From an uncultured Cohaesibacter sp. (GTDB lineage Bacteria > Pseudomonadota > Alphaproteobacteria > Rhizobiales > Cohaesibacteraceae), in the NCBI RefSeq assembly GCF_963667045.1, contig NZ_OY762934.1:2682501-2746500 (forward strand): DNA of 64,000 nt, in the 5' to 3' direction. Below the pieces are notes generated by a model, which made no database searches, was not told the DNA's origin, and was given only the letters and a program-made list of their open reading frames with translations. Within the stretch, counting starts at the first letter, position 1; the number at the start of each line of letters is the position of its first letter. The position numbers and the translations under genes were made by a program. Below are positions 49,681-62,863 of this stretch, piece by piece.

Positions 49681-51057
49681 ATGTTAGGTTTTCTCATTGG
49701 CCTTGTCGTCACGATAGTCGTGGCATGGCTCATCATCAAGAAATACCAGTCACACACCGTGCTGCTGCTGGCTGGTCTGCTGCTTCTTGCGCTGACGCTC
49801 GTTGTCGCGCCTGAAAGCTCGATCCTGTTCAAGAAGGCCACGTCGACGGGCCTGTCGCTGTTTGACATCTTCGACTATGTGCGCGGTTCGCTGGCCTATC
49901 GGGCAGCAGGACTTGGCATGATCATAATGACCGCCGGTGGCTTTGCCAAATACATGGACTATATCGGGGCCACAGATGCCATGGTCGATGTCGCCATTCG
50001 CCCGCTCAAGCTGCTGAACGCACCTTACGTGGTTCTGGCGCTCGGCTATGCCGTGGGGCAGGTGCTCAACATCTTCATCCCTAGCGCCGCCGGCCTTGCC
50101 ATGCTGCTGCTGGTCACCTTCTACCCGACCCTTGTCCGGCTGGGTGTCAGCCGTGCAGCTGCGGCTGCCATGATCGGCACCACCGCCGTGCTTGACCTTG
50201 GTCCGGCGTCCGGTGCCTCCAACCTCGCGGCCAAGACCGCCGAGCTCGATGTCGCGGTCTATTTTGCCCAGCATCAGCTGCCGGTCGGCATTGCCGCCAT
50301 CATCGTCATCACCATCCTGACCTATGTCAGCGCCCGCTATTTCGACAAGAAAGAAGGGCATGTGGTCGAGGCAGAGACACACGCCGTGGATCCGGCAAAG
50401 GCCGATGGCAAGAAGTCCGCGCCAGCTTTCTATGCCCTGCTACCGATGCTGCCGCTGGCCCTTATCCTCGTCTTTTCCAAGCTGCTCATCAGCTCGGTAA
50501 AGCTTGATGTCGTCACTGCCATGCTGATCGGAGCGCTCGTCGGTCTGGTTTGCGAAGCCCTCCGCCATCGCAATGGCAAGGCTGTCACCAAAGGCTTCAT
50601 GGCCTTCTTTGACGGCATGGGTCAGATGTTTGCCCGCATCGTTTCCCTGATCGTCTGTGCCGAGGTATTTGCCGCCGGTCTGACGACCATCGGCATGGTC
50701 GACTTCCTGATCAACGCGGCACAGGGGTCCGGTTTCGGTGTCACGGCCATGACCATCGTCATGTGCGCCATGGTCACGGTCATCGCCGTCATCACCGGCT
50801 CCGGCAATGCGGCCTTCTTCTCCTTCGGCCATCTTGCACCCAATATTGCATCGAGCTTCGGGGCTGCCTCGGTCTCCATGCTGCTGCCGATGCAGCTGAC
50901 CGCCGGTCTTGCCCGGTCCATGTCGCCGGTTGCCGGTGTCATCATCGCCGTCAGCGATGCCGGCCAGTGCTCTCCGATCGACATCGTCCGTCGCACCGCC
51001 CTGCCTGTAGCAGGCGGCATCCTGACCGTCGTTCTGTTCGGGATCATCTTTGCCTGA
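49681..51057 (+). CDS. C4-dicarboxylate transporter, DcuC family
   Basis: A 458-residue membrane carrier with about twelve hydrophobic segments. Family features include the MIIMTAGGFAKYMDYIGATD loop near residue 80, VGQVLNIFIPSAAGLAMLLL near 122, and SGNAAFFSFGHLAPNIA near residue 375. DcuC-type carriers exchange or export C4-dicarboxylates, and some relatives carry other acids. GGGAGG precedes the ATG. It follows the hydrolase by 55 bases, and the peptidase gene follows 120 bases later. Confidence 0.87.
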   Translation: MLGFLIGLVVTIVVAWLIIKKYQSHTVLLLAGLLLLALTLVVAPESSILFKKATSTGLSLFDIFDYVRGSLAYRAAGLGMIIMTAGGFAKYMDYIGATDAMVDVAIRPLKLLNAPYVVLALGYAVGQVLNIFIPSAAGLAMLLLVTFYPTLVRLGVSRAAAAAMIGTTAVLDLGPASGASNLAAKTAELDVAVYFAQHQLPVGIAAIIVITILTYVSARYFDKKEGHVVEAETHAVDPAKADGKKSAPAFYALLPMLPLALILVFSKLLISSVKLDVVTAMLIGALVGLVCEALRHRNGKAVTKGFMAFFDGMGQMFARIVSLIVCAEVFAAGLTTIGMVDFLINAAQGSGFGVTAMTIVMCAMVTVIAVITGSGNAAFFSFGHLAPNIASSFGAASVSMLLPMQLTAGLARSMSPVAGVIIAVSDAGQCSPIDIVRRTALPVAGGILTVVLFGIIFA

Positions 51058-51177
51058 AGACTGGTCAAAGACGCTTTGGGGCAGTAGAGTGACGGTCCTC
51101 ACCGGAGCCCTACTCCCCCGACCCTTTCTCAAACGATCAACGGCGACACCTGATGCCGCCCGCAAAGAGGCATGACG

Positions 51178-52311
51178 ATGAACCCTGCTGAGCTGGACCT
51201 CGATAGTTTTCTCAAGGATCTCGAATTTCTGGTCAATATCGATAGTGGCAGTGGCGACCTTGACGGCGTCAGTGCCGTGGCCGCCTTTTTCGAAGAGGAG
51301 TTTACCAAGCTTGGCTGGCAGGTCATCCGGCGCGACGTCGGTTCCGACGTTGGCCCATGCCTTGAAATCCTGAGCCCGGGAAACAGGAACGACCATGACA
51401 TCCTGCTGCTCGGCCATATGGACACCGTCTTTCCAAAGGGAACCGCAGCCGAACGGCCGTTTCATATCGAAGGCAACCGGGCCTATGGCCCCGGTGTCAT
51501 GGACATGAAATCGGGCGATCTCTTTGCCCTCTACCTCGCGCGGTTGTTTCACAAGACAGGAGAGGCCACGCCATCCATCTGCCTCGCCCTCAACAGTCAC
51601 GAGGAAATCGGCTCCGAGCTGTCACGCGGCTGGATCGAGGATCTGGCCCGGCGCAGTCACCATGCCTTCATCCTCGAACCGGGCCGCGCCAATGGCGATC
51701 TGGTCTTTGAACGCAAGGGCACCGGTCGCTATTGCCTCAAGTTTCATGGCAAGGCAGCCCATTCCGGGGTTGACCCGCAGAACGGCGCCAGCGCCATCAA
51801 CGAACTGGCCTGCTGGGTAACCGAACTGCACAAGCTGACGGATTTCGAAACCGGCCTGACGCTCAATGTCGGGCTCATTTCGGGCGGCACATCGGTCAAT
51901 GCCATCGCCGAATTCGCCGAGGCCGAGGTCGATCTGCGTTTTGTCTCGCAAGACCAGGCCGACCTGGTCGAAGCTCGCATTCGCGAAATGGCCCAGAATG
52001 TCTTCACCCCGAATGTCACCGTCTCCGTTACCGGCGGCGTTTCCCGCCCGCCAATGAATGCCTCCGATGATGCGCTGACGCTCTGCCGCAAGGTGGATGC
52101 CATCGCCGCAGACCTTGGCGTCAAAATCGGCTGGCAGAAGACCGGTGGTGGCTCGGACGGCAACTTCACCGCCGATGTCGGCATCCCGACCATCGACGGC
52201 ATGGGGCCGGTTGGTGGCCGAGCACACAGCCGGGAGGAATATCTCGAAGTTGACAGCATCAGCGAGCGCTTTGCCCTGCTTGCAGGCATCGTGCGGGCCT
52301 TGAAGGCATGA
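51178..52311 (+). CDS. M20 peptidase, glutamate carboxypeptidase (CPG2)-like
   Basis: A zinc-dependent exopeptidase of 377 residues. Metal ligands and catalytic residues are in order: LLGHMDTVFPKGTA (His, Asp), GPGVMDMKSGD (bridging Asp), LNSHEEIGSELSR (Glu pair), FILEPGRANGD, and TGGGSDGNFTA (His-site region). The layout with a dimerisation domain starting at GKAAHSGVDPQNG is that of Pseudomonas CPG2, which removes C-terminal glutamate from folates and other N-acyl-glutamates. The second ATG (51178) is favoured because AGAGG is seven bases upstream; the first (51172) is too close. No signal peptide is visible. Confidence 0.88.
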   Translation: MNPAELDLDSFLKDLEFLVNIDSGSGDLDGVSAVAAFFEEEFTKLGWQVIRRDVGSDVGPCLEILSPGNRNDHDILLLGHMDTVFPKGTAAERPFHIEGNRAYGPGVMDMKSGDLFALYLARLFHKTGEATPSICLALNSHEEIGSELSRGWIEDLARRSHHAFILEPGRANGDLVFERKGTGRYCLKFHGKAAHSGVDPQNGASAINELACWVTELHKLTDFETGLTLNVGLISGGTSVNAIAEFAEAEVDLRFVSQDQADLVEARIREMAQNVFTPNVTVSVTGGVSRPPMNASDDALTLCRKVDAIAADLGVKIGWQKTGGGSDGNFTADVGIPTIDGMGPVGGRAHSREEYLEVDSISERFALLAGIVRALKA

Positions 52312-54515: not shown

Positions 54516-55682
54516 CTAGAGCGGCAACCTGTCCCGCACCAGCTGGGCCCAGTAGGAACAGCCCCACTTGATCACCTCGTCATTGAAGTCAAATTTCGGG
54601 TGATGCAGCTGGGCGGAGGGGCCATTGCCGACATGGATCATCGCACCCGGCACGGCATTCAGCATGAAGGCGAAGTCCTCGCCGCCGAGGGTTGGCGGCA
54701 TGTCGATGCGGACAGCATCGTCGCCTGAAACCGCACGGGCGGCCTTGGCCGCATGCTCGGTTGCCTCGTCATGATTGACCATCACCGGATAGAGACGGCG
54801 GTAATCCAGTTTCCCGACGCAATTGTTGCCTTCGGCAATCTGCGCCACGATCTTGCCAAGGCGTGCCTCGACATGATCACGCACAGCCTCATTGAGGGTA
54901 CGGACGGTACCCTTGATGTTGATCTCTTCGGGGATGACGTTGTAGCTGTCGTTACTGGTGATACCGCACAAAGAAACCACGTGGGACTCCAGCGGATTGA
55001 CGGTGCGAGCACTCATGCCGTTGATAGCCTGGATGATGGCAGCGACAGCCGGGAACGGGTCGATGGCATTGTGCGGCTGGGCCGCATGGCCACCCCGACC
55101 AGTCACCTTGATGTCAAACATGTCAACGGCCCCCATGCTGGGCCCCTTGCCGGTTACGAAATGGCCGACCGGCACATCGGGGATGTTGTGCATGCCATAG
55201 ACTTCATCGCAAGGCCAACGCTCGAACAGGCCGTCATCGATCATCGCCTGTGCGCCAGCGCCGCCTTCTTCGGCGGGCTGGAAGATCACCAGCACCGTGC
55301 CGTCAAAGGCGCGGCTTTCGACAAAATGCCTTGCAGCGCCCAGCAGCATGGTGGTGTGGCCATCATGGCCGCAGGCATGCATCTTGCCCGGAACCTTCGA
55401 GGCGTGAGGCAGTCCGGTGGCTTCGACGATCGGCAGGGCATCCATATCGGCACGCAGGCCGATGGTGCGGCCGGATTTGTTGCTCTGGCCATGGATGACA
55501 CCGACAACACCGGTCTTGCCCAGCCCTTCAACCACCTCGTCGACACCCGCAGCGCGCAGCGCTTCGGCCACTTTCTTCGAGGTGCGCGCAAGGTCGTAAA
55601 GCAGTTCGGGATTCTCGTGCAAATCCCGCCGGAAAGCGGTCAGGTCATCGATTTCACGCGAGACCCAATTATCAACTGCCAT
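54516..55682 (-). CDS. M20D amidohydrolase (N-acyl amino acid hydrolase / hippurate hydrolase type)
   Basis: A 388-residue metal-dependent amidohydrolase. Motifs of the M20D family run in order: ACGHDGHTTMLLGAARHF (residues 103-120), FQPAEEGGAGAQAMIDDG, YGMHNIPDVPVG and TLGGEDFAFM near the end, which hold the His, Glu and Asp ligands. Members cleave N-acyl, N-carbamoyl or amide bonds of small acids, including hippurate, indole-3-acetyl amino acids and S- or N-carbamoyl amino acids. It follows the ATC-hydrolase-family gene by 18 bases on the same strand, which suggests it cuts the product of that enzyme. Confidence 0.92.
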   Translation of the reverse strand: MAVDNWVSREIDDLTAFRRDLHENPELLYDLARTSKKVAEALRAAGVDEVVEGLGKTGVVGVIHGQSNKSGRTIGLRADMDALPIVEATGLPHASKVPGKMHACGHDGHTTMLLGAARHFVESRAFDGTVLVIFQPAEEGGAGAQAMIDDGLFERWPCDEVYGMHNIPDVPVGHFVTGKGPSMGAVDMFDIKVTGRGGHAAQPHNAIDPFPAVAAIIQAINGMSARTVNPLESHVVSLCGITSNDSYNVIPEEINIKGTVRTLNEAVRDHVEARLGKIVAQIAEGNNCVGKLDYRRLYPVMVNHDEATEHAAKAARAVSGDDAVRIDMPPTLGGEDFAFMLNAVPGAMIHVGNGPSAQLHHPKFDFNDEVIKWGCSYWAQLVRDRLPL

Positions 55683-55700
55683 ATCCTGTTCTTCCTTTTC

Positions 55701-56162
55701 TCACTTCATCTTGTATCTGAAATCACAATGGGAAGCGCCCTTCATGATTGTCTGGGTGCGCTCCAGTCTGATCTCGGGGTTATAGCCGACGCAGAAGTCG
55801 CCATCACGGTTGCAGGACAGGAGATGGCCAATATCGCCAAGCCCCATTTCCTTGTACATTTCGGCGTAGCGGCACCGGGTGACATTGAAGTCCATCTGGT
55901 CCGGCTCGGTCACCAGCGTTTCGATCTGGAGCGCATCTTCCTTGGTCCAGTTGGGCAGAATGTCGGCAAAATCGGAAAGGGTCGGGGCGTGGTCGAGCCC
56001 TTCTGCCATGGCCTTGCCCTGCTCGATGGCCGAGCGGGAGCAGGTTTCGCCGATCACGGCTTCGGCTTCGGCGCGGCCGCTGCGTTCGGTGATCACATCC
56101 AGCACATGCTTCAAGATCATTGCCTCGATGCGGCGGCGTTCCAGAATGGGTATATCGTTCAT
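55701..56162 (-). CDS. L-2-amino-thiazoline-4-carboxylic acid (ATC) hydrolase-family protein
   Basis: A 153-residue protein that carries the family block FNVTRCRYAEMYKEMGL (residues 92-108) and LLSCNRDGDFCVGYNP followed by ERTQTIMKGASHCDFRY. These cysteine-rich segments are those of the enzyme that opens the thiazoline ring in Pseudomonas cysteine synthesis from ATC. The fit is strong in the C-terminal 70 residues. It lies between an FAD oxidase and an M20D amidohydrolase in a likely operon. Substrate identity in this genome is inferred only from the family. Confidence 0.82.
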   Translation of the reverse strand: MNDIPILERRRIEAMILKHVLDVITERSGRAEAEAVIGETCSRSAIEQGKAMAEGLDHAPTLSDFADILPNWTKEDALQIETLVTEPDQMDFNVTRCRYAEMYKEMGLGDIGHLLSCNRDGDFCVGYNPEIRLERTQTIMKGASHCDFRYKMK

Positions 56163-56174
56163 GGTCAGGTCCTG

Positions 56175-57485
56175 TCAGCTTTTGTATTCCCGGCGGTCCT
56201 TGAATTTGTACCAGGCAAGATAGTAAGGCGCTATGGCGCGGCCGATGGCGTGGAACGGCAGGCTATGGGGCTCGGTCGTTGGCAGAGCCAACGAGGCGAG
56301 ATCTTCGCCATTCGTGGCGCGAGCCATCTCCCGCCCCAGTGAATAGCCGAGCGCAACACCGCGACCATTGCAGCCAATCCAGGTCCAGCCATTCGGGCCA
56401 AGGCTGTGAACGCGCGGGAAGCGGTCCCAGTTCATGGAAAGAAAGCCTTCCCAGACATGGGTCATCTTTGGCGGGGCAAGCTGTGGGAAGCTGTCGGCCA
56501 GATTGTTGGCGGCCTTGCGAGCCATGCGGGCGGCGAGATCGCCGAAGCCCATGATGGCGCCACCGGTGATCAGGCGGTTATCGCGGTCATAATGGAAGAA
56601 GCGCAGGTCGCCGCGGGTATCGGACACGGCCTGACGTCCCGGCAGGATCGTTGCGCGCAGCTCATCGCTCAGCGGTTCGGTTGACATCTGCCAGGAGGAA
56701 ACCGGCACGATGGAATGGGCAAGACGGCGGTTGAGCTTTGGTACCACTTCGCCGGTGTAGGCGTTGGTGGCAAGGATCAGCGCCCGCGCCTTGACCGAAC
56801 CCCGGTCGGTCTTGACGACCCACTGAGTGCCATCATGGGCATAGGATACGACCGGTGTGGCCTCATGGATGGTGCCTCCGGCCCTTTCTAAGGCCAGTGC
56901 CAATCCACGGGCCAGACCAAGCGGGTTGATATGGCCTCCGGATGGCGCGAGCATGCCGCCATACCAATGGTCGGTGCCGAGCAGTTCCGTGGTCGCCTTG
57001 CGATCAAGATAACGGGCATCAAGGCCAAACCGCTGCCATGCCTCGACACGCTTCTGGCTCAGTTTCGTGCGTCCCGGGGTGTGGGCCGGCTGGAACCAGC
57101 CGGTCTGTTCGGCATCGGCATGAGAGACGATGTCTTCTTCCCGGATCGCGTCAAACAGGACATTGGCAGACGCGCCAATCATCTGGGCAAAGAGGCGGCC
57201 GGTCTCGCCGTAGCGCTGAACCCACATGTCCGGTTCGGCAGCGGTAAGGGTTGGAATGACCTGCCCGTTGTTGCGCCCGGAAGCGCCCCAGCCGATCGCC
57301 TTGCCTTCCAGCAAAACCACCTCACGCCCGGCCTTGGCCAGATGCAGGGCGGCGCCCAGTCCGGTGAAGCCGCCGCCGATCACCACCGTATCGGTTTCAA
57401 TCGCTTCGGTGAGCGGAGCTGCCTCGGGGCGGGCCGGTGCGGTGACGGCCCAGATGGAGGGAGGGAATGTGACTGGATTGCTCAT
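56175..57485 (-). CDS. FAD-dependent amine oxidase/dehydrogenase (PuuB/OrdL type)
   Basis: A 436-residue flavoprotein. The FAD-binding fold starts DTVVIGGGFTGLGAALHLAK near residue 33, followed by the ATG-type substrate domain VIGWGASGRNNGQV-like segment (AIGWGASGRNNGQVIP) and the second FAD segment RLITGGAIMGFGDL. The C-terminal motif is WIGCNGRGVALGYSLG. The closest families are gamma-glutamylputrescine oxidase and other D-amino acid or amine oxidases. The ATG at 57485 fits the family start. It heads a gene set with the ATC-type hydrolase and M20D amidohydrolase, 144 bases from the Liv operon end. Confidence 0.9.
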   Translation of the reverse strand: MSNPVTFPPSIWAVTAPARPEAAPLTEAIETDTVVIGGGFTGLGAALHLAKAGREVVLLEGKAIGWGASGRNNGQVIPTLTAAEPDMWVQRYGETGRLFAQMIGASANVLFDAIREEDIVSHADAEQTGWFQPAHTPGRTKLSQKRVEAWQRFGLDARYLDRKATTELLGTDHWYGGMLAPSGGHINPLGLARGLALALERAGGTIHEATPVVSYAHDGTQWVVKTDRGSVKARALILATNAYTGEVVPKLNRRLAHSIVPVSSWQMSTEPLSDELRATILPGRQAVSDTRGDLRFFHYDRDNRLITGGAIMGFGDLAARMARKAANNLADSFPQLAPPKMTHVWEGFLSMNWDRFPRVHSLGPNGWTWIGCNGRGVALGYSLGREMARATNGEDLASLALPTTEPHSLPFHAIGRAIAPYYLAWYKFKDRREYKS

Positions 57486-57549
57486 GTCTTTTCTTTCACT
57501 GTTTAGACTGATCAAACGGCGTCGATTATCTGTCGAATTCTAAAATACC

Positions 57550-57616
57550 AGAGGGTCTGGCCCCTCTGCAAAGGTGCATAACGAGGAAAATCCCGGCATG
57601 AGAGACACGCCGGGAT
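57550..57616 (-). terminator. Terminators at the end of the Liv operon
   Basis: The stem ATCCCGGC (57590-57597) and GCCGGGAT (57609-57616) is perfect, and on the minus strand is followed by TTTTCC. A second smaller stem, AGAGGG-N6-CCCTCT, lies at 57550-57567. They end the Liv transcript at least in part before the FAD oxidase gene. Confidence 0.8.
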
Positions 57617-57629
57617 GATTGGCAGAGCC

Positions 57630-58346
57630 TCAGGCCTCTTCGTGAACATGGCCGCCCAGATAGGCATCGGCCACGCGCTTGTCGCTCATCAGCGCATGGG
57701 CATCGCCCTCGATGACGATCTTGCCATGCTCGATGACATAGGCCCGATCGGAGATGCGCAGCGCTGCCTTGACATTCTGCTCAACGAGCAGAATCGCATA
57801 GCCTTCCTCGCGGATCCTGGTGACCAGCTCACAGATGAAGCCCACAAGACGTGGCGCAAGGCCAAGCGATGGTTCGTCCAGCAACAGGACCTTTGGCTTG
57901 CGCATCAGGGCGCGGCCGATGCAGAGCATCTGCTGCTCACCACCGGACATGGAGCCTGCCTGCTGCTTGAGGCGTTCCTTGAGCACCGGAAACAGGGTCA
58001 GAACATGATCCAGTTCCTGCCGACCAAGCGGCCCGGCCCCGAGAATGAGATTCTCCAGCACGGTCATGGTGGAGAAGATCTGCCGCCCTTCCGGCGCCTG
58101 CATGACGCCGCGATCGACGATTTCGTGGCTCTTGAGCTTGGAGATGTCCTGCCCATCGAGCAGAATCTCGCCACCGGTGGCATGATAGATGCCCGAGATG
58201 CAGCGCATCAGCGAGGTCTTGCCGACCCCGTTGGCACCCAGAACAGAGACAATGCCCTTTTCCGGAACGGCCACGGTGATGTCATGCAGGATTTCCTGAA
58301 TGCCGATCTTGAGAGACAGGTTGTTGATTTCGAGACTATTGCTCAT
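57630..58346 (-). CDS. livF: Branched-chain amino acid-type ABC ATPase LivF
   Basis: A 238-residue ATPase with Walker A LGANGVGKTSLMRC near residue 37, signature MSGGEQQMLCIGRALM near residue 134 and Walker B VLLLDEPSLGLAP. The start overlaps the LivG stop as TGATG. It is the last gene of the Liv unit. The Liv family moves branched-chain and other hydrophobic amino acids, amides and short peptides, so the substrate is open. Confidence 0.94.
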   Translation of the reverse strand: MSNSLEINNLSLKIGIQEILHDITVAVPEKGIVSVLGANGVGKTSLMRCISGIYHATGGEILLDGQDISKLKSHEIVDRGVMQAPEGRQIFSTMTVLENLILGAGPLGRQELDHVLTLFPVLKERLKQQAGSMSGGEQQMLCIGRALMRKPKVLLLDEPSLGLAPRLVGFICELVTRIREEGYAILLVEQNVKAALRISDRAYVIEHGKIVIEGDAHALMSDKRVADAYLGGHVHEEA

Positions 58347-59101
58347 CAGTCATCACCTCCCAGATAGGCTTCCAGAACGGCAGGGTTCTGACGCACCTTG
58401 GCCGGCACGTCATCGGCAATTTTTCTGCCCGAGGCAAGCACGACGAGGCGCTGACAAATGCCCATCACCAACCCCATGTCATGCTCGACCAGCATGATCG
58501 TGAGGCCGGTCTTATTGAGATCGGTGATGAACTGGGCCAGTTCGGCTGTCTCGGAATCATTCATCCCGGCGGCAGGTTCATCAAGGATCAGCAGATCCGG
58601 CTTCATGGCCAGAGCACGCGCGATTTCAAGATATTTGCGCTTGCCGTAGGACAGGTTGGCCGCCAGATCGTGAGCATGTTCCTTGAGGCCGACCTTTTCG
58701 AGCATTTCCCAGCTGCGCTCGGAAATTTCCTTTGCCTTGGCCCGACCGCCCCAGAGTGCGGAGAAGGGGCTGACCCCGATCATGCCCAGTGCGCCGACGG
58801 AGATATTGTCGAAGACGGTCATGTTGGGGAAGACACGCAGGTTCTGGAAGGTACGGGACATGCCCCGGTGTGCGATCTTGTGCACCGGCAGCCCCGTGAT
58901 GCTCTTGCCCTTGAAGCGGACATCGCCCGAAGACGGCGGCGTGAAGCCGGAGATCAGGTTGAACAGGGTGGTCTTGCCAGCCCCGTTCGGTCCGATCAGG
59001 CCGAACAGCTCGCCTTCGGAGACTTTGGTGGAGACATCATCGACAGCCCTCAGGCCACCGAAGACGCGGGTCAGGGAATCAAGTTCAAGTATGGTCGTCA
59101 T
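58346..59101 (-). CDS. livG: Branched-chain amino acid-type ABC ATPase LivG
   Basis: A 251-residue ATPase with Walker A IGPNGAGKTTLFNLI near residue 38, the LivG-type signature LSYGKRKYLEIARALA and Walker B LLILDEPAAGMND. It forms the ATPase pair with LivF, overlaps the LivM stop as ATGA and LivF start as TGATG, so the genes are translationally coupled. Confidence 0.94.
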   Translation of the reverse strand: MTTILELDSLTRVFGGLRAVDDVSTKVSEGELFGLIGPNGAGKTTLFNLISGFTPPSSGDVRFKGKSITGLPVHKIAHRGMSRTFQNLRVFPNMTVFDNISVGALGMIGVSPFSALWGGRAKAKEISERSWEMLEKVGLKEHAHDLAANLSYGKRKYLEIARALAMKPDLLILDEPAAGMNDSETAELAQFITDLNKTGLTIMLVEHDMGLVMGICQRLVVLASGRKIADDVPAKVRQNPAVLEAYLGGDD

Positions 59102-60096
59102 TTCCAGCCGATCCCCTTCTCAGAATTGTCTTCCGACCAGGCCGAGCCGAGAATCCTGCGCGCAAAGTTGAGCGCATTGACTTCGCCGAACAGGCCCTTT
59201 GGCAGGAACAGGATCGCCCCGAACATCAGAAGGCCGACGATGATGTTGCGGATGTCGCCGAAGTAACGCAGCACTTCCGGCAGCAGGATCAGCAACAGGG
59301 CACCGATCAGCACGCCCGGCAGAGAGCCCAGCCCCCCCACAACGACCATCGTCAGGATGAGGATCGACTGGGAGAAGTTGAAGTCGTTGGGCGAAATGTA
59401 GCCCGTGGTGTAGGCCCAGAGCGCCCCGGCGATGCCTGCGAAGAAGGCAGAAATCACGAAGGCCTGAATCTTCATCACGGTGACGTTGATGCCCATGGCC
59501 GCCGTGCACTGGTCGTCTTCACGCAGTGACCGCAGGGCATTGCCATAATAGGAATGGCTGAGACGGTTGAGAATGAGGATCGAGACGGCCGCAACAACGG
59601 CCACCACATAATAGATCCCCAGTTCACTGTTGATGGCATAGCCGAACAGATCGATGCCATCGAAAAGCATCACCCCGTTGGGACCATTGGTGACATCGAC
59701 CCAGTTCTGGAAGACCAGAAACAGCATCTGGCCGATGCCAAGCGTCGCGACGGCGAAATAGATCGACATCAGGCGCATGGTTGGCAGCGCCACCAGGAAG
59801 GCGACAAAGGCAGCGCCGATACCGGCCAGCGGCAGGCCATAAGTGAAGCCGATGCCATATTTGGAGCCGAGCAACGCGGCCACATAGGCACCGACGCCGT
59901 AGAGGGAAGCATGCCCCAGATGCAACAGCCCTGCCACGCCGGTGACCAGATGCAGGGAGGCGGCCAACAGCATGAAGACGAAGGCCAGAGTGGCGATCTG
60001 GTAATAGTAGCCCTTGCCGAGACCTTCGAGCGCGAACGGAACCACGGCGAAGACGATAACCAGCAGCAGCAGCTTGATGAGCAATGGTTTAGACAC
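59098..60096 (-). CDS. livM: Branched-chain amino acid-type ABC permease LivM
   Basis: A 332-residue permease with about nine membrane segments. The LivM motifs GHASLYGVGAYVAALLG near residue 78 and GGLGSLPGVLIGALLLILLP near residue 255 are present. The start is GTG at 60096 with a strong AGGAGGG upstream, overlapping livH by 8 bases. It pairs with LivH. Confidence 0.93.
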   Translation of the reverse strand: MSKPLLIKLLLLVIVFAVVPFALEGLGKGYYYQIATLAFVFMLLAASLHLVTGVAGLLHLGHASLYGVGAYVAALLGSKYGIGFTYGLPLAGIGAAFVAFLVALPTMRLMSIYFAVATLGIGQMLFLVFQNWVDVTNGPNGVMLFDGIDLFGYAINSELGIYYVVAVVAAVSILILNRLSHSYYGNALRSLREDDQCTAAMGINVTVMKIQAFVISAFFAGIAGALWAYTTGYISPNDFNFSQSILILTMVVVGGLGSLPGVLIGALLLILLPEVLRYFGDIRNIIVGLLMFGAILFLPKGLFGEVNALNFARRILGSAWSEDNSEKGIGWK

Positions 60097-61003
60097 GTTC
60101 CCTCCTTGCTCCGAAGAGGCCTTGCGGGAAGAAGATCAGCGTGGCGAGCAGGAAGGCATAGGCAACCATGTCAGACCATACCGATGGCATGAAGCTGGTG
60201 GAAATGCTCTCGGCAAGCCCGAGGATCATGGCAGAGACGACCGCGCCCGGAATGGAGCTGAGGCCACCCATGACCATGGCAACAAAGGCCTTGATGCCCG
60301 GCGTGAAACCCATGGCGGGGAAGATTGCGCCATAATAGAGCCCGACGAGAATGCCGGCGAGTGCGCCCATGCCCGAGCCGATGATAAAGGTGAAAATGAT
60401 CGTCCGGTCGGTGTTGATGCCGCAGTATTTGGCACCCAGTGCATTGTTGGACACCGCGCGGATGGACATGCCGATCGGGCTTTTCTTGAGCAGCCACTGC
60501 AGACCGCCCAGCATGATCAGCGTTATGGCCAGAATGATCAGGTCACCATTGACGATGGTGATCGGGCCGATCTCGATCGGCTTGTTAATCAGGTAGGCCA
60601 GATCGATGGACTGGAACTGCGAGCCGAAGATCAGTTCCATGGCTTCGCGGGCGATGATCGACATGGCCAGGGAAGACATCAGGGTCGCTTCACGCATGGC
60701 GCGGGATTTCAGCGAGGCTTCGTCGGAGAATCGGCGGAACGGACGGAAGGCAAGACGTTCAAGCCCGAAACCGGCAAAAGCACCCGCAGCCAGAGCAATG
60801 AACAGAACCACCAGAAGCGGCGGCGCAAAAGCCGTGATGGCCATCAGACCGGCAAAGGCACCAATCGTGTAAACCTCGCCATGGGCAAAGTTCACCACAT
60901 TGAGCACGCCGAAGATCAGCGTGAAGCCGATCGCCATCAGCGCATAAATCATACCCAGCGAAACGCCAATGGCGAGCTGTTGCAAAAAATAAGGATCGAA
61001 CAC
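60089..61003 (-). CDS. livH: Branched-chain amino acid-type ABC permease LivH
   Basis: A 304-residue permease with eight membrane segments. The LivH sequence marks are GVLNVVNFAHGEVYTIGAF near residue 31 and FVAMVMGGLSSIPGAVVSA near residue 241. It follows the binding-protein gene after 68 bases with a perfect-type hairpin, and overlaps livM. Confidence 0.93.
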   Translation of the reverse strand: MFDPYFLQQLAIGVSLGMIYALMAIGFTLIFGVLNVVNFAHGEVYTIGAFAGLMAITAFAPPLLVVLFIALAAGAFAGFGLERLAFRPFRRFSDEASLKSRAMREATLMSSLAMSIIAREAMELIFGSQFQSIDLAYLINKPIEIGPITIVNGDLIILAITLIMLGGLQWLLKKSPIGMSIRAVSNNALGAKYCGINTDRTIIFTFIIGSGMGALAGILVGLYYGAIFPAMGFTPGIKAFVAMVMGGLSSIPGAVVSAMILGLAESISTSFMPSVWSDMVAYAFLLATLIFFPQGLFGARRERV

Positions 61004-61030
61004 GAAGGTCCCCCTTTTCTCTTATTGCCA

Positions 61031-61058
61031 CCCGCCCGAAGGCCGAGCTCCGGACGGG
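61031..61058 (-). other. Intercistronic stem-loop between livK and livH
   Basis: Arms CCCGCCCG (61031-61038) and CGGACGGG (61051-61058) pair over 8 bp with one G-T wobble and a 12-base loop, between the binding-protein gene and the permease gene. Confidence 0.6.
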
Positions 61059-61071
61059 ATGGGGGATTGGG

Positions 61072-62184
61072 TTACTTCACTTCAACGAAGACGCCATCCT
61101 TGACGGTGGCCTTGGTGAGTTCCTTGAGAGGCTCGCCATTTTCGTCAAAGGAGGTGTTGCCGGTGACACCCGGGAAATCCTTGGTCGCAGCCACGGCGTC
61201 GCGCAGGCTCTGACGGGTTACATCCGGATAGGCCTTGACGACAGCAGCCAGCATGATGTTGACGGCATCATAGGCCTGCGCAGGGAACTGACCCGGCGCA
61301 TTGTCATGGGTCTTTTTCCATTCGGTCACGAATTCCGTCACGTTGGCATCGGCACGGGTCGGCAGGAAGGTCGCGGTCAGTTTGAGGCCATTCGCAGCAT
61401 CACCGGCAAGCTCGATCAGCTTGTCGTTATAGGCCGCCGAGGTGGAGTAGACAGGGATGCCGGCATTGAGCTGGGCAACCTGTTTGAGAAACTGGGCACC
61501 GTCTTCATAGAAGAAACCGGTGTAGATGGCTTCCGGCTTCTTCTCTTCCAGCTTGGTGATGATGGAACGGAAATCAGCCAGACCGCGATTGAAGAATTCG
61601 GTGTAGACGACTTCGCCGCCCATTTCCTTGTAGGGATCGACAAAGCCCTTGACCACGGACTGGCCCCAGTCGGTCTGCTCGGCAATCACGGCGACCTTCT
61701 TGATGCCCTGATCGATCATCCACTTGGCGTTGACAGCGCCTTCCTGATTCTGGGTGGTGATGTTGCGGAATTGCCATTCGGAGATCTTGGCGAAGTCCGG
61801 GTGGGATGCGGTCTGAGACAGCTGGACCATGCCGGAGCGCTTGTAGACCTGAGCGGCTGCCATGGAGACTGTGGAGGTGAAGTCACCGAGAACGCCGACG
61901 ATTTCCTTGTCGTCAACGAACTTGCGGGCGATGGTTACACCTTCCTTGGCATCGGAGCGGGAGTCTTCATAGACGATTTCTACGGGCACCGGAATCTGGC
62001 CGGATGCGTTGAACTTGGCAAGAGCGATTTCTGCAGCGTCCTTGAAGTCCTGGCCGTACTGGGCAGTGTTGCCAGTGAGGGGCAGCTGGTAGCCGATCTT
62101 GATACTATCGGCAGCCTGCGAGGCTGCTGGCAGCATGACTGAAGCGACAGTGAGTGCCAAAAGCGTTCTGCGAGAAAGTTTCAT
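61072..62184 (-). CDS. livK: Liv-type periplasmic binding protein
   Basis: A 370-residue receptor of the Peripla_BP_6 family. It has a signal peptide beginning MKLSRRTLLALTVASVMLPA, which includes an SRRTLL twin-arginine-like motif, with cleavage after SQAA. Mature motifs include KIGYQLPLTGNTAQYGQDF and VIAEQTDWGQSVVKGF. LivK-type proteins bind branched-chain amino acids, amides, urea or aromatic acids. The context of an ATC-hydrolase-like protein on both sides of the locus suggests a nitrogen or sulfur heterocycle or N-acyl amino acid. Confidence 0.9.
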   Translation of the reverse strand: MKLSRRTLLALTVASVMLPAASQAADSIKIGYQLPLTGNTAQYGQDFKDAAEIALAKFNASGQIPVPVEIVYEDSRSDAKEGVTIARKFVDDKEIVGVLGDFTSTVSMAAAQVYKRSGMVQLSQTASHPDFAKISEWQFRNITTQNQEGAVNAKWMIDQGIKKVAVIAEQTDWGQSVVKGFVDPYKEMGGEVVYTEFFNRGLADFRSIITKLEEKKPEAIYTGFFYEDGAQFLKQVAQLNAGIPVYSTSAAYNDKLIELAGDAANGLKLTATFLPTRADANVTEFVTEWKKTHDNAPGQFPAQAYDAVNIMLAAVVKAYPDVTRQSLRDAVAATKDFPGVTGNTSFDENGEPLKELTKATVKDGVFVEVK

Positions 62185-62255
62185 AGCGAGAGTTCCCCAA
62201 TGGGTTGGTAATCGGTGTACTAAGCGCCTGAAAAGTCAGGCCGAGGGAGGTGACG

Positions 62256-62323
62256 CCCGTTTTAACGGGTCTGTTTCAAGTCCGGTATTCCGGATCCTGC
62301 ATTTCGACGTCCGGTTTGCCGGA
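62256..62323. repeat. Three consecutive small hairpins between the ATC-like gene and livK
   Basis: CCCGTT-TT-AACGGG (62256-62269), TCCGG-TATT-CCGGA (62281-62294) and TCCGG-TTTG-CCGGA (62310-62323) are perfect mini-hairpins in the 166-base gap. The last two are near-identical copies 29 bases apart. Confidence 0.6.
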
Positions 62324-62350
62324 TCTGTCTGTATTGTAAAAAGATGTTCT

Positions 62351-62863
62351 TCAAACGGCTTCCGCTTCAGAACCAGGTTTCACGATCAGGCGGCAGCAAC
62401 CGGTATCGCCGATCTTCCATGTTTCGCCTTCGAAGGTGAAGCCGGCCTTGGTGAACATGCCTGCGTCAATGGCCCCTGCGGCCTTGCACAGCAGCTCCAG
62501 GGCTTCACCCTTGCGGCCTGCTGCAACCCAGTTGTCCTTCAGCGGGCACTTGTGGAATTTGATTTCCATGCCTTCATGGTCGCATTTGCGCAGTTCCGGA
62601 CCAAACAGGTGATCGCGGCAAGGGATGCCCTGCAGAAACTGTTCGGTCAGTCCTTCGATATTGGCAGGGCCATGGGCCTGAAGCTTTTCGCCCATTTCTT
62701 CGCCAAGGCGATAGGTCGCCGCACTCATCAGCTCGACGGCTTTGTCGTTGCCAAAATTCTCGACCAGAACATCAAACATGAACATGTAGAATTTGGCGCG
62801 CATCGCATAGGCGCCAGAAAGCTGCTCAAAGGTGATTTCCGGGGTTTTGGTCTCTTCTGTCAT
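62351..62863 (-). CDS. ATC-hydrolase-like protein, first gene before the Liv operon
   Basis: A 170-residue cytoplasmic protein. Segments resembling the ATC-hydrolase family are KFHKCPLKDNWVAAG near residue 95 and ELLCKAAGAIDAGMF near residue 115, then GDTGCCRLIVKPG near the end, with cysteines in the places where metal or substrate might be bound. The similarity to the protein at 55701 is in layout rather than in simple identity. The start at 62863 has GGAG six bases upstream; a longer in-frame start is rejected. It reads into the livK gene over a 166-base gap with hairpins. Confidence 0.65.
   Translation of the reverse strand: MTEETKTPEITFEQLSGAYAMRAKFYMFMFDVLVENFGNDKAVELMSAATYRLGEEMGEKLQAHGPANIEGLTEQFLQGIPCRDHLFGPELRKCDHEGMEIKFHKCPLKDNWVAAGRKGEALELLCKAAGAIDAGMFTKAGFTFEGETWKIGDTGCCRLIVKPGSEAEAV

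Follow-up and report, generated by a model that had tools for sequence, protein, structure and literature searches.

What ring compound would be handled by a gene cluster that joins two proteins of the 2-aminothiazoline-4-carboxylate (ATC)-hydrolase family, PF14196, to an importer, an oxidase, and an amidohydrolase? The question is raised by nine minus-strand genes forming one cluster at positions 54516 to 62863 of a 64,000-nucleotide stretch (called the window hereafter) from contig NZ_OY762934.1 of an uncultured Cohaesibacter sp., a marine bacterium. In the order of transcription, they are ATC2, LivK, LivH, LivM, LivG, LivF, the flavin adenine dinucleotide (FAD) oxidase gene, ATC1, and the M20D gene, with intergenic gaps on the common strand of 166, 68, -8, -4, -1, 144, 12, and 18 nt. 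All the genes named in a first-pass annotation of the window were found as open frames at the positions given there. The gene content, the protein families, the conservation of the set, and the replacement of a carbamoylase by an aminoacylase and an oxidase are direct observations. The best explanation of the cluster is, in our opinion, a unit for the catabolism of thiazolidine-4-carboxylates, to which we give an even chance. In its broader form, a conserved catabolic unit acting on a nitrogen-containing ring acid by oxidation, ring opening, and deacylation, the explanation is held with considerable confidence; the more specific claim of a thiazolidine ring that yields cysteine could equally prove right or wrong.

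Two subfamilies of PF14196 proteins

ATC1 (55701 to 56162), a predicted ring-opening hydrolase, passes the PF14196 gathering score of 28.1 with 125.5 bits (E value of 3.8e-36, profile positions 1 to 145). ATC2 (62351 to 62863), which opens the cluster, passes it with 45.6 bits (E value of 1.6e-11, profile positions 4 to 130), and the two proteins match each other in a profile comparison with 97.3% probability. The ATC-hydrolase assignment made for both genes in the first-pass annotation is thus borne out, as is its remark that the second member has diverged, since the subfamily alignments indicate that ATC2 is a distinct PF14196 subfamily. The start of ATC2 at 62863 agrees with its relatives, which is not the case for a longer frame from 63001. 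A search of the 5.24-Mb Cohaesibacter genome found two PF14196 copies in all, both of them in the cluster.

Three cysteines common to V4R domains align between the two proteins (C97, C117, and C146 of ATC1 with C106, C126, and C157 of ATC2). All three are invariant in the 43 rows of the ATC1 alignment; in the 43 rows of the ATC2 alignment, C106 and C157 are invariant and C126 occurs in at least 90%. The V4R kinship of the family and the three conserved cysteines have already been pointed out (PMC5847659). The predicted structures suggest a MopR/Bet3-like fold for ATC1 (predicted local distance difference test score [pLDDT] of 94.5) and a Bet3/V4R-like fold for ATC2 (pLDDT of 95.4), and no PDB sequence matched either protein up to an E value of 10.

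The fold of both models resembles that of phenol-sensor domains, and it is compatible with a reverse order of events. In this order, imported N-acyl amino acids would be deacylated by the M20D enzyme and the freed amino acids oxidized by the FAD enzyme, while the PF14196 proteins would serve as ligand sensors or carriers. M20D enzymes do include general aminoacylases, and the set of invariant residues in ATC2 differs from that in ATC1. However, neither of the window's PF14196 proteins has a second domain in a Pfam search, a ring-opening activity of the family on a thiazoline is in print (cited in PMC5847659), and ATC1 has 13 core positions that do not vary in any of the three partner classes compared, which comprise 56 FAD-linked, 7 carbamoylase-linked, and 39 partnerless sequences (of 105 sequences, 2 that had only M20D and 1 with an odd length were set aside). 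We consider the reverse order unlikely. Because these core positions are invariant across the partner classes, it is plausible, as far as conservation can tell, that FAD-linked and carbamoylase-linked ATC1 proteins share the same ring-opening chemistry. The residues that consistently separate the two classes are at N-terminal positions 8, 17, and 20, and none is in the conserved core, so that the ATC1 sequence alone does not give the substrate.

An aminoacylase and an oxidase in the place of a carbamoylase

The M20D gene (54516 to 55682), which closes the cluster, encodes an aminoacylase-type amidohydrolase that passes the TIGR01891 cutoff of 153.75 with 329.8 bits and obtains 28.4 bits from the carbamoylase model TIGR01879, the cutoff of which is 204. 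Its top-scoring model, carboxypeptidase CpsA (NF040868), gives 345.9 bits against an equivalog cutoff of 500. The protein contains CGHDGH, PAEE, MHN, and HHP, which we take to be the metal-site motifs, and its relatives in the PDB are YxeP, an indole-3-acetic acid (IAA)-amino acid hydrolase, and an N-acyl-glutamine aminoacylase. With an aminoacylase replacing the carbamoylase, the opened ring would bear an N-acyl and not an N-carbamoyl group; therefore, C2 of the ring would carry hydrogen or carbon, not NH2.

The neighbors of ATC1 were called in loci from three genome searches, namely, 19 ATC1-type regions (besides the window's own) and 20 weaker ones fetched as a part of the rows of a 385-genome search and, from the two others, 35 of 50 and 5 of 13 matches. 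Calls were made by the best tblastn hit within about 10.5 kb, with FAD oxidase and M20 genes accepted at 38% identity or more plus score limits, and six FAD-like hits at 27 to 32% identity were left uncounted as this oxidase. The genome searches supplied 60 ATC1 copies. The FAD oxidase accompanies 14 of them, M20D being present as well in 9 cases and a carbamoylase in 0; the 46 FAD-negative copies have M20D in 1 case, a carbamoylase in 6, and none of the three partners in 39. The association of the oxidase with M20D is significant both by copy (Fisher test, P = 1.2e-6) and by genus (P = 0.0007, computed on a hand count of 9 FAD-positive and 34 FAD-negative genera). Adding the 44 ATC1 copies of ATC2-found loci brings the FAD-positive copies to 58, of which 43 have M20D and 0 a carbamoylase; compared with 6 of 46 FAD-negative copies, this gives P = 0.006, the copies not being independent. 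On the ATC1 tree, the labels require 8 changes for FAD with M20D, 7 for FAD without M20D, and 2 for carbamoylase; therefore, the contexts do not each go back to a single founder event.

These data bear on the canonical reading of the cluster, in which ATC would be imported, opened by a PF14196 protein, and decarbamoylated by the M20 enzyme, the oxidase being incidental. PF14196 is named after this very reaction, and canonical-type loci exist, such as L168 and L171 (Lrp regulator, racemase, ATC1, and carbamoylase), a Sinorhizobium plasmid (L079) with a hydrolase at 462.8 bits against the TIGR01879 cutoff of 204, and, outside the class, loci that contain ATC1 together with a carbamoylase and either have, in addition, Liv genes (L195) or a gene resembling LivK (L197 and L198) or lie on a short contig (L196). 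A Pantoea plasmid carries Liv genes, an ATC gene, and a "Zn-dependent hydrolase" (known by name only). None of the numbered canonical-type loci, however, has an FAD oxidase at 38% identity or more, whereas the oxidase is present in 60 of the 80 ATC2 loci described below; together with the TIGR01891-type M20 enzyme and the lack of a carbamoylase beside all 58 FAD-positive ATC1 copies, this makes the canonical route very improbable here, and it was rejected as the best reading. Of the proposals in the first-pass annotation, the import and opening of a nitrogen- or sulfur-containing heterocycle is therefore kept as the best reading, and the alternative of N-carbamoyl amino acids is not supported.

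The FAD oxidase and its link with PF14196

The FAD gene (56175 to 57485) encodes a DAO-family oxidoreductase (PF01266, 207 bits against a gathering score of 27.9), a predicted cyclic amine oxidase. The top one of 71 NCBIfam models is L-pipecolate oxidase AmaA (NF050086), with 229.6 bits against a cutoff of 600, which makes the protein a relative and not a member; the closest solved sequences are dimethylglycine dehydrogenase (52.1 bits) and NikD (45.6 bits). Pipecolate oxidation acts on the C-N bond distal to the carboxylate. Since this bond corresponds to C2-N3 in thiazolidine-4-carboxylate, the same oxidation would yield the ring type opened by PF14196, and the presence of the oxidase suggests that the substrate is imported as a saturated thiazolidine.

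The oxidase belongs to a group tied to PF14196 genes. In a plasmid collection with 35 matching records, a PF14196 gene lies no more than 8 kb away in 21 of the 22 with an identity of at least 42.8%; in the 22nd, from Roseomonas marmotae, the oxidase adjoins HyuA/HyuB oxoprolinase-type genes. Two of the 13 more distant records (below 42.8%) were opened, and both are HyuAB clusters. Furthermore, when 84 oxidase sequences are placed in a tree, 77 close ones associated with PF14196 group together (support of 87/82), three HyuAB-associated ones form another group (100/95), and four hits at 28 to 32% identity fall far off; the rows of this tree were mostly found through PF14196, and the plasmid count alone is free of such bias.

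Related FAD oxidases occur with HyuA/HyuB and another type of ABC importer in three plasmid loci (L203:2200-10224, L204:485-9281, and L205:475-9278), two of which also contain a VOC protein; they probably represent another oxidize-then-open route for a cyclic amine. Locus L182 combines the oxidase, ATC1, and a HyuA-like gene, a possible bridge between both ring-opening systems.

Conservation and variants of the gene set

A scan of named genomes with the ATC2 alignment, in which the best 80 of 210 relatives were kept, found genes for Liv permeases or for both ATPases of the importer in 64 loci (53 with a permease closely like the window's), the FAD oxidase in 60, ATC1 in 44, M20D in 35, and a carbamoylase in 0. 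The whole set occurs in 34 of the 80 loci, in about ten genera, and 11 loci have none of the partners. Azospirillum accounts for 22 of the whole-set loci (some strains being counted twice, so that the counts are of loci and not of independent events), Cohaesibacter for 3, and Celeribacter for 2; the rest are from Pacificibacter, Tropicimonas, Siculibacillus, Pinisolibacter, Aquabacter, Prosthecomicrobium, and one Phyllobacteriaceae bin. The combination to which the first-pass annotation drew attention is thus conserved beyond this genome. The window's ATC2 and that of C. haloalkalitolerans share 99% identity, and some betaproteobacterial bins have ATC2 and the oxidase. PF14196 itself is uncommon; a sample of 385 alphaproteobacterial genomes contained it in 56.

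Two diverged versions of the whole unit reside on different plasmids of Azospirillum brasilense (L076 and L072), arranged as M20D-FAD-ATC2-LivKHMGF-ATC1 in one and as Lrp-Rid-PLP-ATC2-LivKHMGF-ATC1-M20D-FAD in the other, in which PLP denotes a pyridoxal phosphate enzyme resembling the desulfhydrase Cds1. The first-pass description of ATC-hydrolase-family genes at both ends of the Liv importer applies literally to this species; in the window, ATC1 follows the FAD gene. On plasmids of Sagittula, Pseudosulfitobacter, and Agrobacterium, FAD-ATC1-M20D is retained, but the importer is of the Dpp type and the stretch lacks ATC2, so that the importer type and either PF14196 gene are exchangeable in the unit. 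As a rough background, no LivH/LivM match was found around partnerless ATC1 in 31 loci of at least 19 kb, which were chosen for absent FAD/M20 partners and omit shorter loci such as L186 (14.3 kb). In the latter (L186:3670-10204), a partnerless ATC1 lies near its own Liv set (LivK 32% and LivH 53% identical to the window's), without FAD/M20 genes.

In a Martelella variant (L077:7360-20052), LivKHMGF and ATC1 are joined by an Asp/Glu racemase and by an FAD protein of another kind, and genes for a nonribosomal peptide synthetase (NRPS) and a phosphopantetheinyl transferase lie alongside; a connection of the route with a thiazoline natural product is conceivable here.

The variants are also relevant to whether preformed 2-aryl or 2-alkyl thiazolines, e.g., siderophore or natural-product fragments, are imported and opened to N-acylcysteine, the oxidase working on a side product. 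The IAA-amino acid and N-acyl-glutamine hydrolases among the M20D relatives would suit such substrates, and the Agrobacterium variant adjoins siderophore-uptake genes, as the Martelella one adjoins the NRPS gene. However, siderophore and NRPS neighbors occur in one locus each, and the oxidase, for which this route has no need, is nearly as frequent in the ATC2 loci (60 of 80) as the Liv genes (64) and is retained where the importer is of the Dpp type. Import of preformed thiazolines seems doubtful to us.

The importer and its ligand pocket

The Liv importer of the HAAT family, predicted in the first-pass annotation to be complete, indeed has its five components in one run, i.e., the periplasmic substrate-binding protein LivK (61072 to 62184; PF13458, 196.4 bits), the permeases LivH (60089 to 61003; PF02653, 138.6 bits) and LivM (59098 to 60096; PF02653, 145.8 bits), and the ATPases LivG (58346 to 59101; PF00005 and PF12399) and LivF (57630 to 58346; PF00005). 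None of the NCBIfam branched-chain models is reached (LivF, the top model of its protein, 224.7 against 441; LivG, 257.3 against 362; LivH, 177.5 against 379; LivM, 199.2 against 366; binding protein, 144.1 against 477).

The closest solved sequence to LivK is 3hut (323.9 bits), followed by the group of 3ip5, an Agrobacterium amino acid binder that we take to be Atu2422, which binds gamma-aminobutyrate and proline. Six LivK residues aligned with the 3ip5 pocket (F102, S104, S123, S127, W173, and S249) are identical in all 65 matches above 300 bits, near-copies included. In particular, Ser249 occupies the place of Asp226 of the 3ip5 protein, which presumably holds the ligand amine. The alignment suggests that the LivK ligands form a single class lacking a free primary amine; this is in line with a ring amino acid but does not prove it.

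Accessory genes and the nature of the product

In some variant loci, the unit is accompanied by PLP enzymes. By far the best model for those of Azospirillum (L076; 535.4 bits) and Agrobacterium (L075; 561.7 bits) is L-cysteine desulfhydrase Cds1 (NF052478); both are below the equivalog cutoff of 600 and are thus close relatives, not members. A Rid protein adjoins the Cds1-like gene in Azospirillum. The gene for a class V PLP protein of the cysteine desulfurase kind (SufS model, 143.9 against 475.1, tested on L073) adjoins ATC2 in four genera of roseobacters as well as in three other genomes of Cohaesibacter. Moreover, an Asp/Glu-family racemase (tested on L077; TIGR00035, 222.3 against 93.1; cysteate racemase model, 93.1 against 190) is present in canonical as well as oxidative loci. 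These accessory genes, which come from independent families, fit cysteine as the putative product. The class V protein of L073 (L073:8985-10607) has 540 aa, about 150 residues of which extend beyond the matched Pfam domain (29 to 391), and this tail has no Pfam match at an E value of 1e-5.

Lrp regulators and PLP enzymes likewise accompany ectoine loci. Their presence beside the unit is therefore also in line with the same logic applied to a ring other than thiazolidine (an oxazolidine, an imidazolidine, a pyrrolidine, or an ectoine-like cyclic amidine carboxylate), which would give an N-acyl amino acid and then serine, diaminopropionate, or diaminobutyrate. Further support comes from the M20D protein, which obtains 305.7 bits from the ectoine deacetylase DoeB2 model (NF038260), and from the oxidase relatives that adjoin oxoprolinase-type genes. 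On the other side, the equivalog cutoff of DoeB2 is 550, the PALP-type PLP neighbors match Cds1 best and obtain about 30 bits from the hydroxyectoine EutB models, and the published reaction of PF14196 has a thiazoline as its substrate (PMC5847659). A different ring thus appears rather unlikely, if the least so of the alternatives considered here, and the ectoine-type route raised by the DoeB2 score is not favored, given the DoeB2 cutoff and the Cds1 match.

Proposed route

On the thiazolidine reading, LivKHMGF would take up the cyclic amino acid, a thiazolidine-4-carboxylate, and the FAD oxidase would act on the C2-N bond of the ring to give a 2-thiazoline-4-carboxylate. ATC1, ATC2, or both would add water at C2 and open the ring to an N-acylcysteine (N-formylcysteine if C2 had only hydrogen), from which the M20D enzyme would remove the acyl group, releasing cysteine. 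In the loci of some relatives, sulfur would then be removed by the Cds1-like desulfhydrase with Rid or by the class V desulfurase-like enzyme. We infer the substrate, the order of the reactions, the products, and catalysis by both PF14196 proteins. On a wider scale, it is conceivable, at slightly less than even chances, that a recurrent alphaproteobacterial pathway imports aldehyde-cysteine adducts, oxidizes them with a dedicated FAD enzyme, and opens them with PF14196 proteins acting on rings with C2-H or C2-alkyl and not C2-NH2, to yield cysteine and a carboxylic acid.

Several observations weigh against this reading. The exclusion between oxidase and carbamoylase is not significant in the first 60 ATC1 copies (P = 0.32; 0.57 by genus), distant FAD-like genes, uncounted above, occur in the carbamoylase loci L168 (30% identity) and L171 (32%), and FAD-positive ATC1 copies lack a neighboring M20D gene in 5 of 14 cases among these 60 and in 10 of 44 cases among the copies added from ATC2-found loci. 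The oxidase was not found in 20 of the 80 ATC2 loci, and one of them (L063) has M20D without it. In addition, the 39 of 60 ATC1 copies without any of the three partners leave room for other roles of the family, which the FAD-less ATC2 loci and L063 also suggest; when frames of at least 120 aa within 7 kb of these 39 copies (L033 to L051 and others) were clustered, the only ones in at least five loci were ATC1 itself and an antisense frame over ATC1. Within the genus, the distribution is patchy, with ATC1 in three of five other genomes and not in two. As to the product, the Cds1- and SufS-like neighbors are under the NCBIfam cutoffs and limited to some variants, the window's own cluster contains no cysteine-degrading gene, and no Cds1 or class V orthologue was found elsewhere in the window's genome (closest, 27% and 30% identity). 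The HyuAB association of oxidase relatives suggests that the wider oxidase group is not restricted to sulfur rings. Finally, according to titles cited by PMC9814826, thioproline is oxidized by proline dehydrogenase and ProC of E. coli, so that the reaction does not strictly require an FAD enzyme dedicated to it.

Transcription and surroundings

A terminator-like hairpin (57568 to 57549, minus strand), found by a pattern scan alone, lies in the gap between LivF and the FAD gene; because of it, the cluster may comprise two transcription units split at this point. Scanning for promoters gave 3 against 3.4 expected, and terminator-like hairpins numbered 22 against 9.5 expected. In four roseobacter genera (L083 to L087), a divergent Lrp/AsnC gene sits in the same gap.

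The flanking frames seem unrelated to the cluster. Those upstream are dihydroxyacetone-kinase-like and sugar-regulator-like, and those downstream are SGNH-like (all three assigned by eye) and a glutamate-carboxypeptidase-like M20 enzyme (PRK06133 model, 278.6 against 349). The latter follows a DcuC-like permease frame (by eye), and the two, at 49681 to 52311, form a separate transporter-peptidase pair.

Comparison with known systems

Thiazolidine-4-carboxylates are rings formed from cysteine and an aldehyde, thioproline with formaldehyde and its 2-alkyl relatives with other aldehydes. To our knowledge, their oxidative salvage or detoxification is known only as a side activity of other enzymes. 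Cysteine reacts spontaneously with formaldehyde to give thiazolidine-4-carboxylate (PMC9814826). Thioproline, when added, retards the growth of bacteria and has been used as a stressor, but the toxicity of formaldehyde in Methylobacterium extorquens is reported not to be driven by it (both PMC13131673). If the proposed route is true, a gene set can be assigned to oxidative salvage or detoxification, thiazolidine chemistry becomes a source of sulfur, nitrogen, and carbon, which would explain cysteine recovery by environmental bacteria, and PF14196 is widened from one named reaction to a thiazoline-opening family on a V4R-type fold, with a second subfamily (ATC2) having its own substrate. The enzymes could also be of use for cysteine production from substituted thiazolidines. 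Neither the ring-opening family nor the general logic is new. For the oxidative acyl version, which has an importer of its own and a second PF14196 protein, we found no description, as judged by titles and abstract openings among the matches listed from the open-access literature, most subscription journals being outside this scope.

In the ATC pathway of Pseudomonas, DL-ATC is converted by ATC racemase and L-ATC hydrolase to carbamoylcysteine and by an amidohydrolase to L-cysteine (PMC10821248). The unit shares with it a PF14196 protein beside an M20 hydrolase, cysteine as the likely product, and, in several relatives, an Asp/Glu-type racemase and an Lrp regulator; it differs in the M20D aminoacylase in place of the carbamoylase, the FAD oxidase, the second PF14196 protein, and its own Liv or Dpp importer.

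The proposed substrate and the N-formylcysteine intermediate are those of the bacterial oxidation of thioproline (Mackenzie and Harris 1957, Deutch 1992, and Deutch 2001, as cited in PMC9814826), and E. coli ProC is reported to oxidize thioproline (PMC12899673). The passages cited here on this route name the oxidases and no hydrolase for the ring. In contrast to the E. coli proline dehydrogenase and ProC, the unit has a DAO-family FAD protein beside a hydrolase, a deacylase, and an importer.

As regards the sensor domains of the V4R/MopR/PoxR/DmpR type, both PF14196 models appear to share their fold and have the three conserved cysteines, but the window's two proteins are free-standing, have a cysteine spacing unlike that of DmpR, and lack regulator domains. 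In ectoine degradation, DoeA opens the ring and DoeB deacetylates the product. The likeness lies in the logic, by which a carboxylate with a cyclic C=N bond is opened and the resulting N-acyl amino acid is deacylated; the unit, however, would use a ring opener of the PF14196 family, and its M20D protein is below the DoeB2 cutoff. The FAD-HyuA-HyuB clusters on Agrobacterium, Shinella, and Roseomonas plasmids (L203 to L205) resemble the unit in having a related FAD oxidase, a ring-opening enzyme, and an ABC importer, and they differ from it in their HyuAB oxoprolinase-type genes, the other type of ABC importer, and the absence of an annotated PF14196 gene from these stretches.

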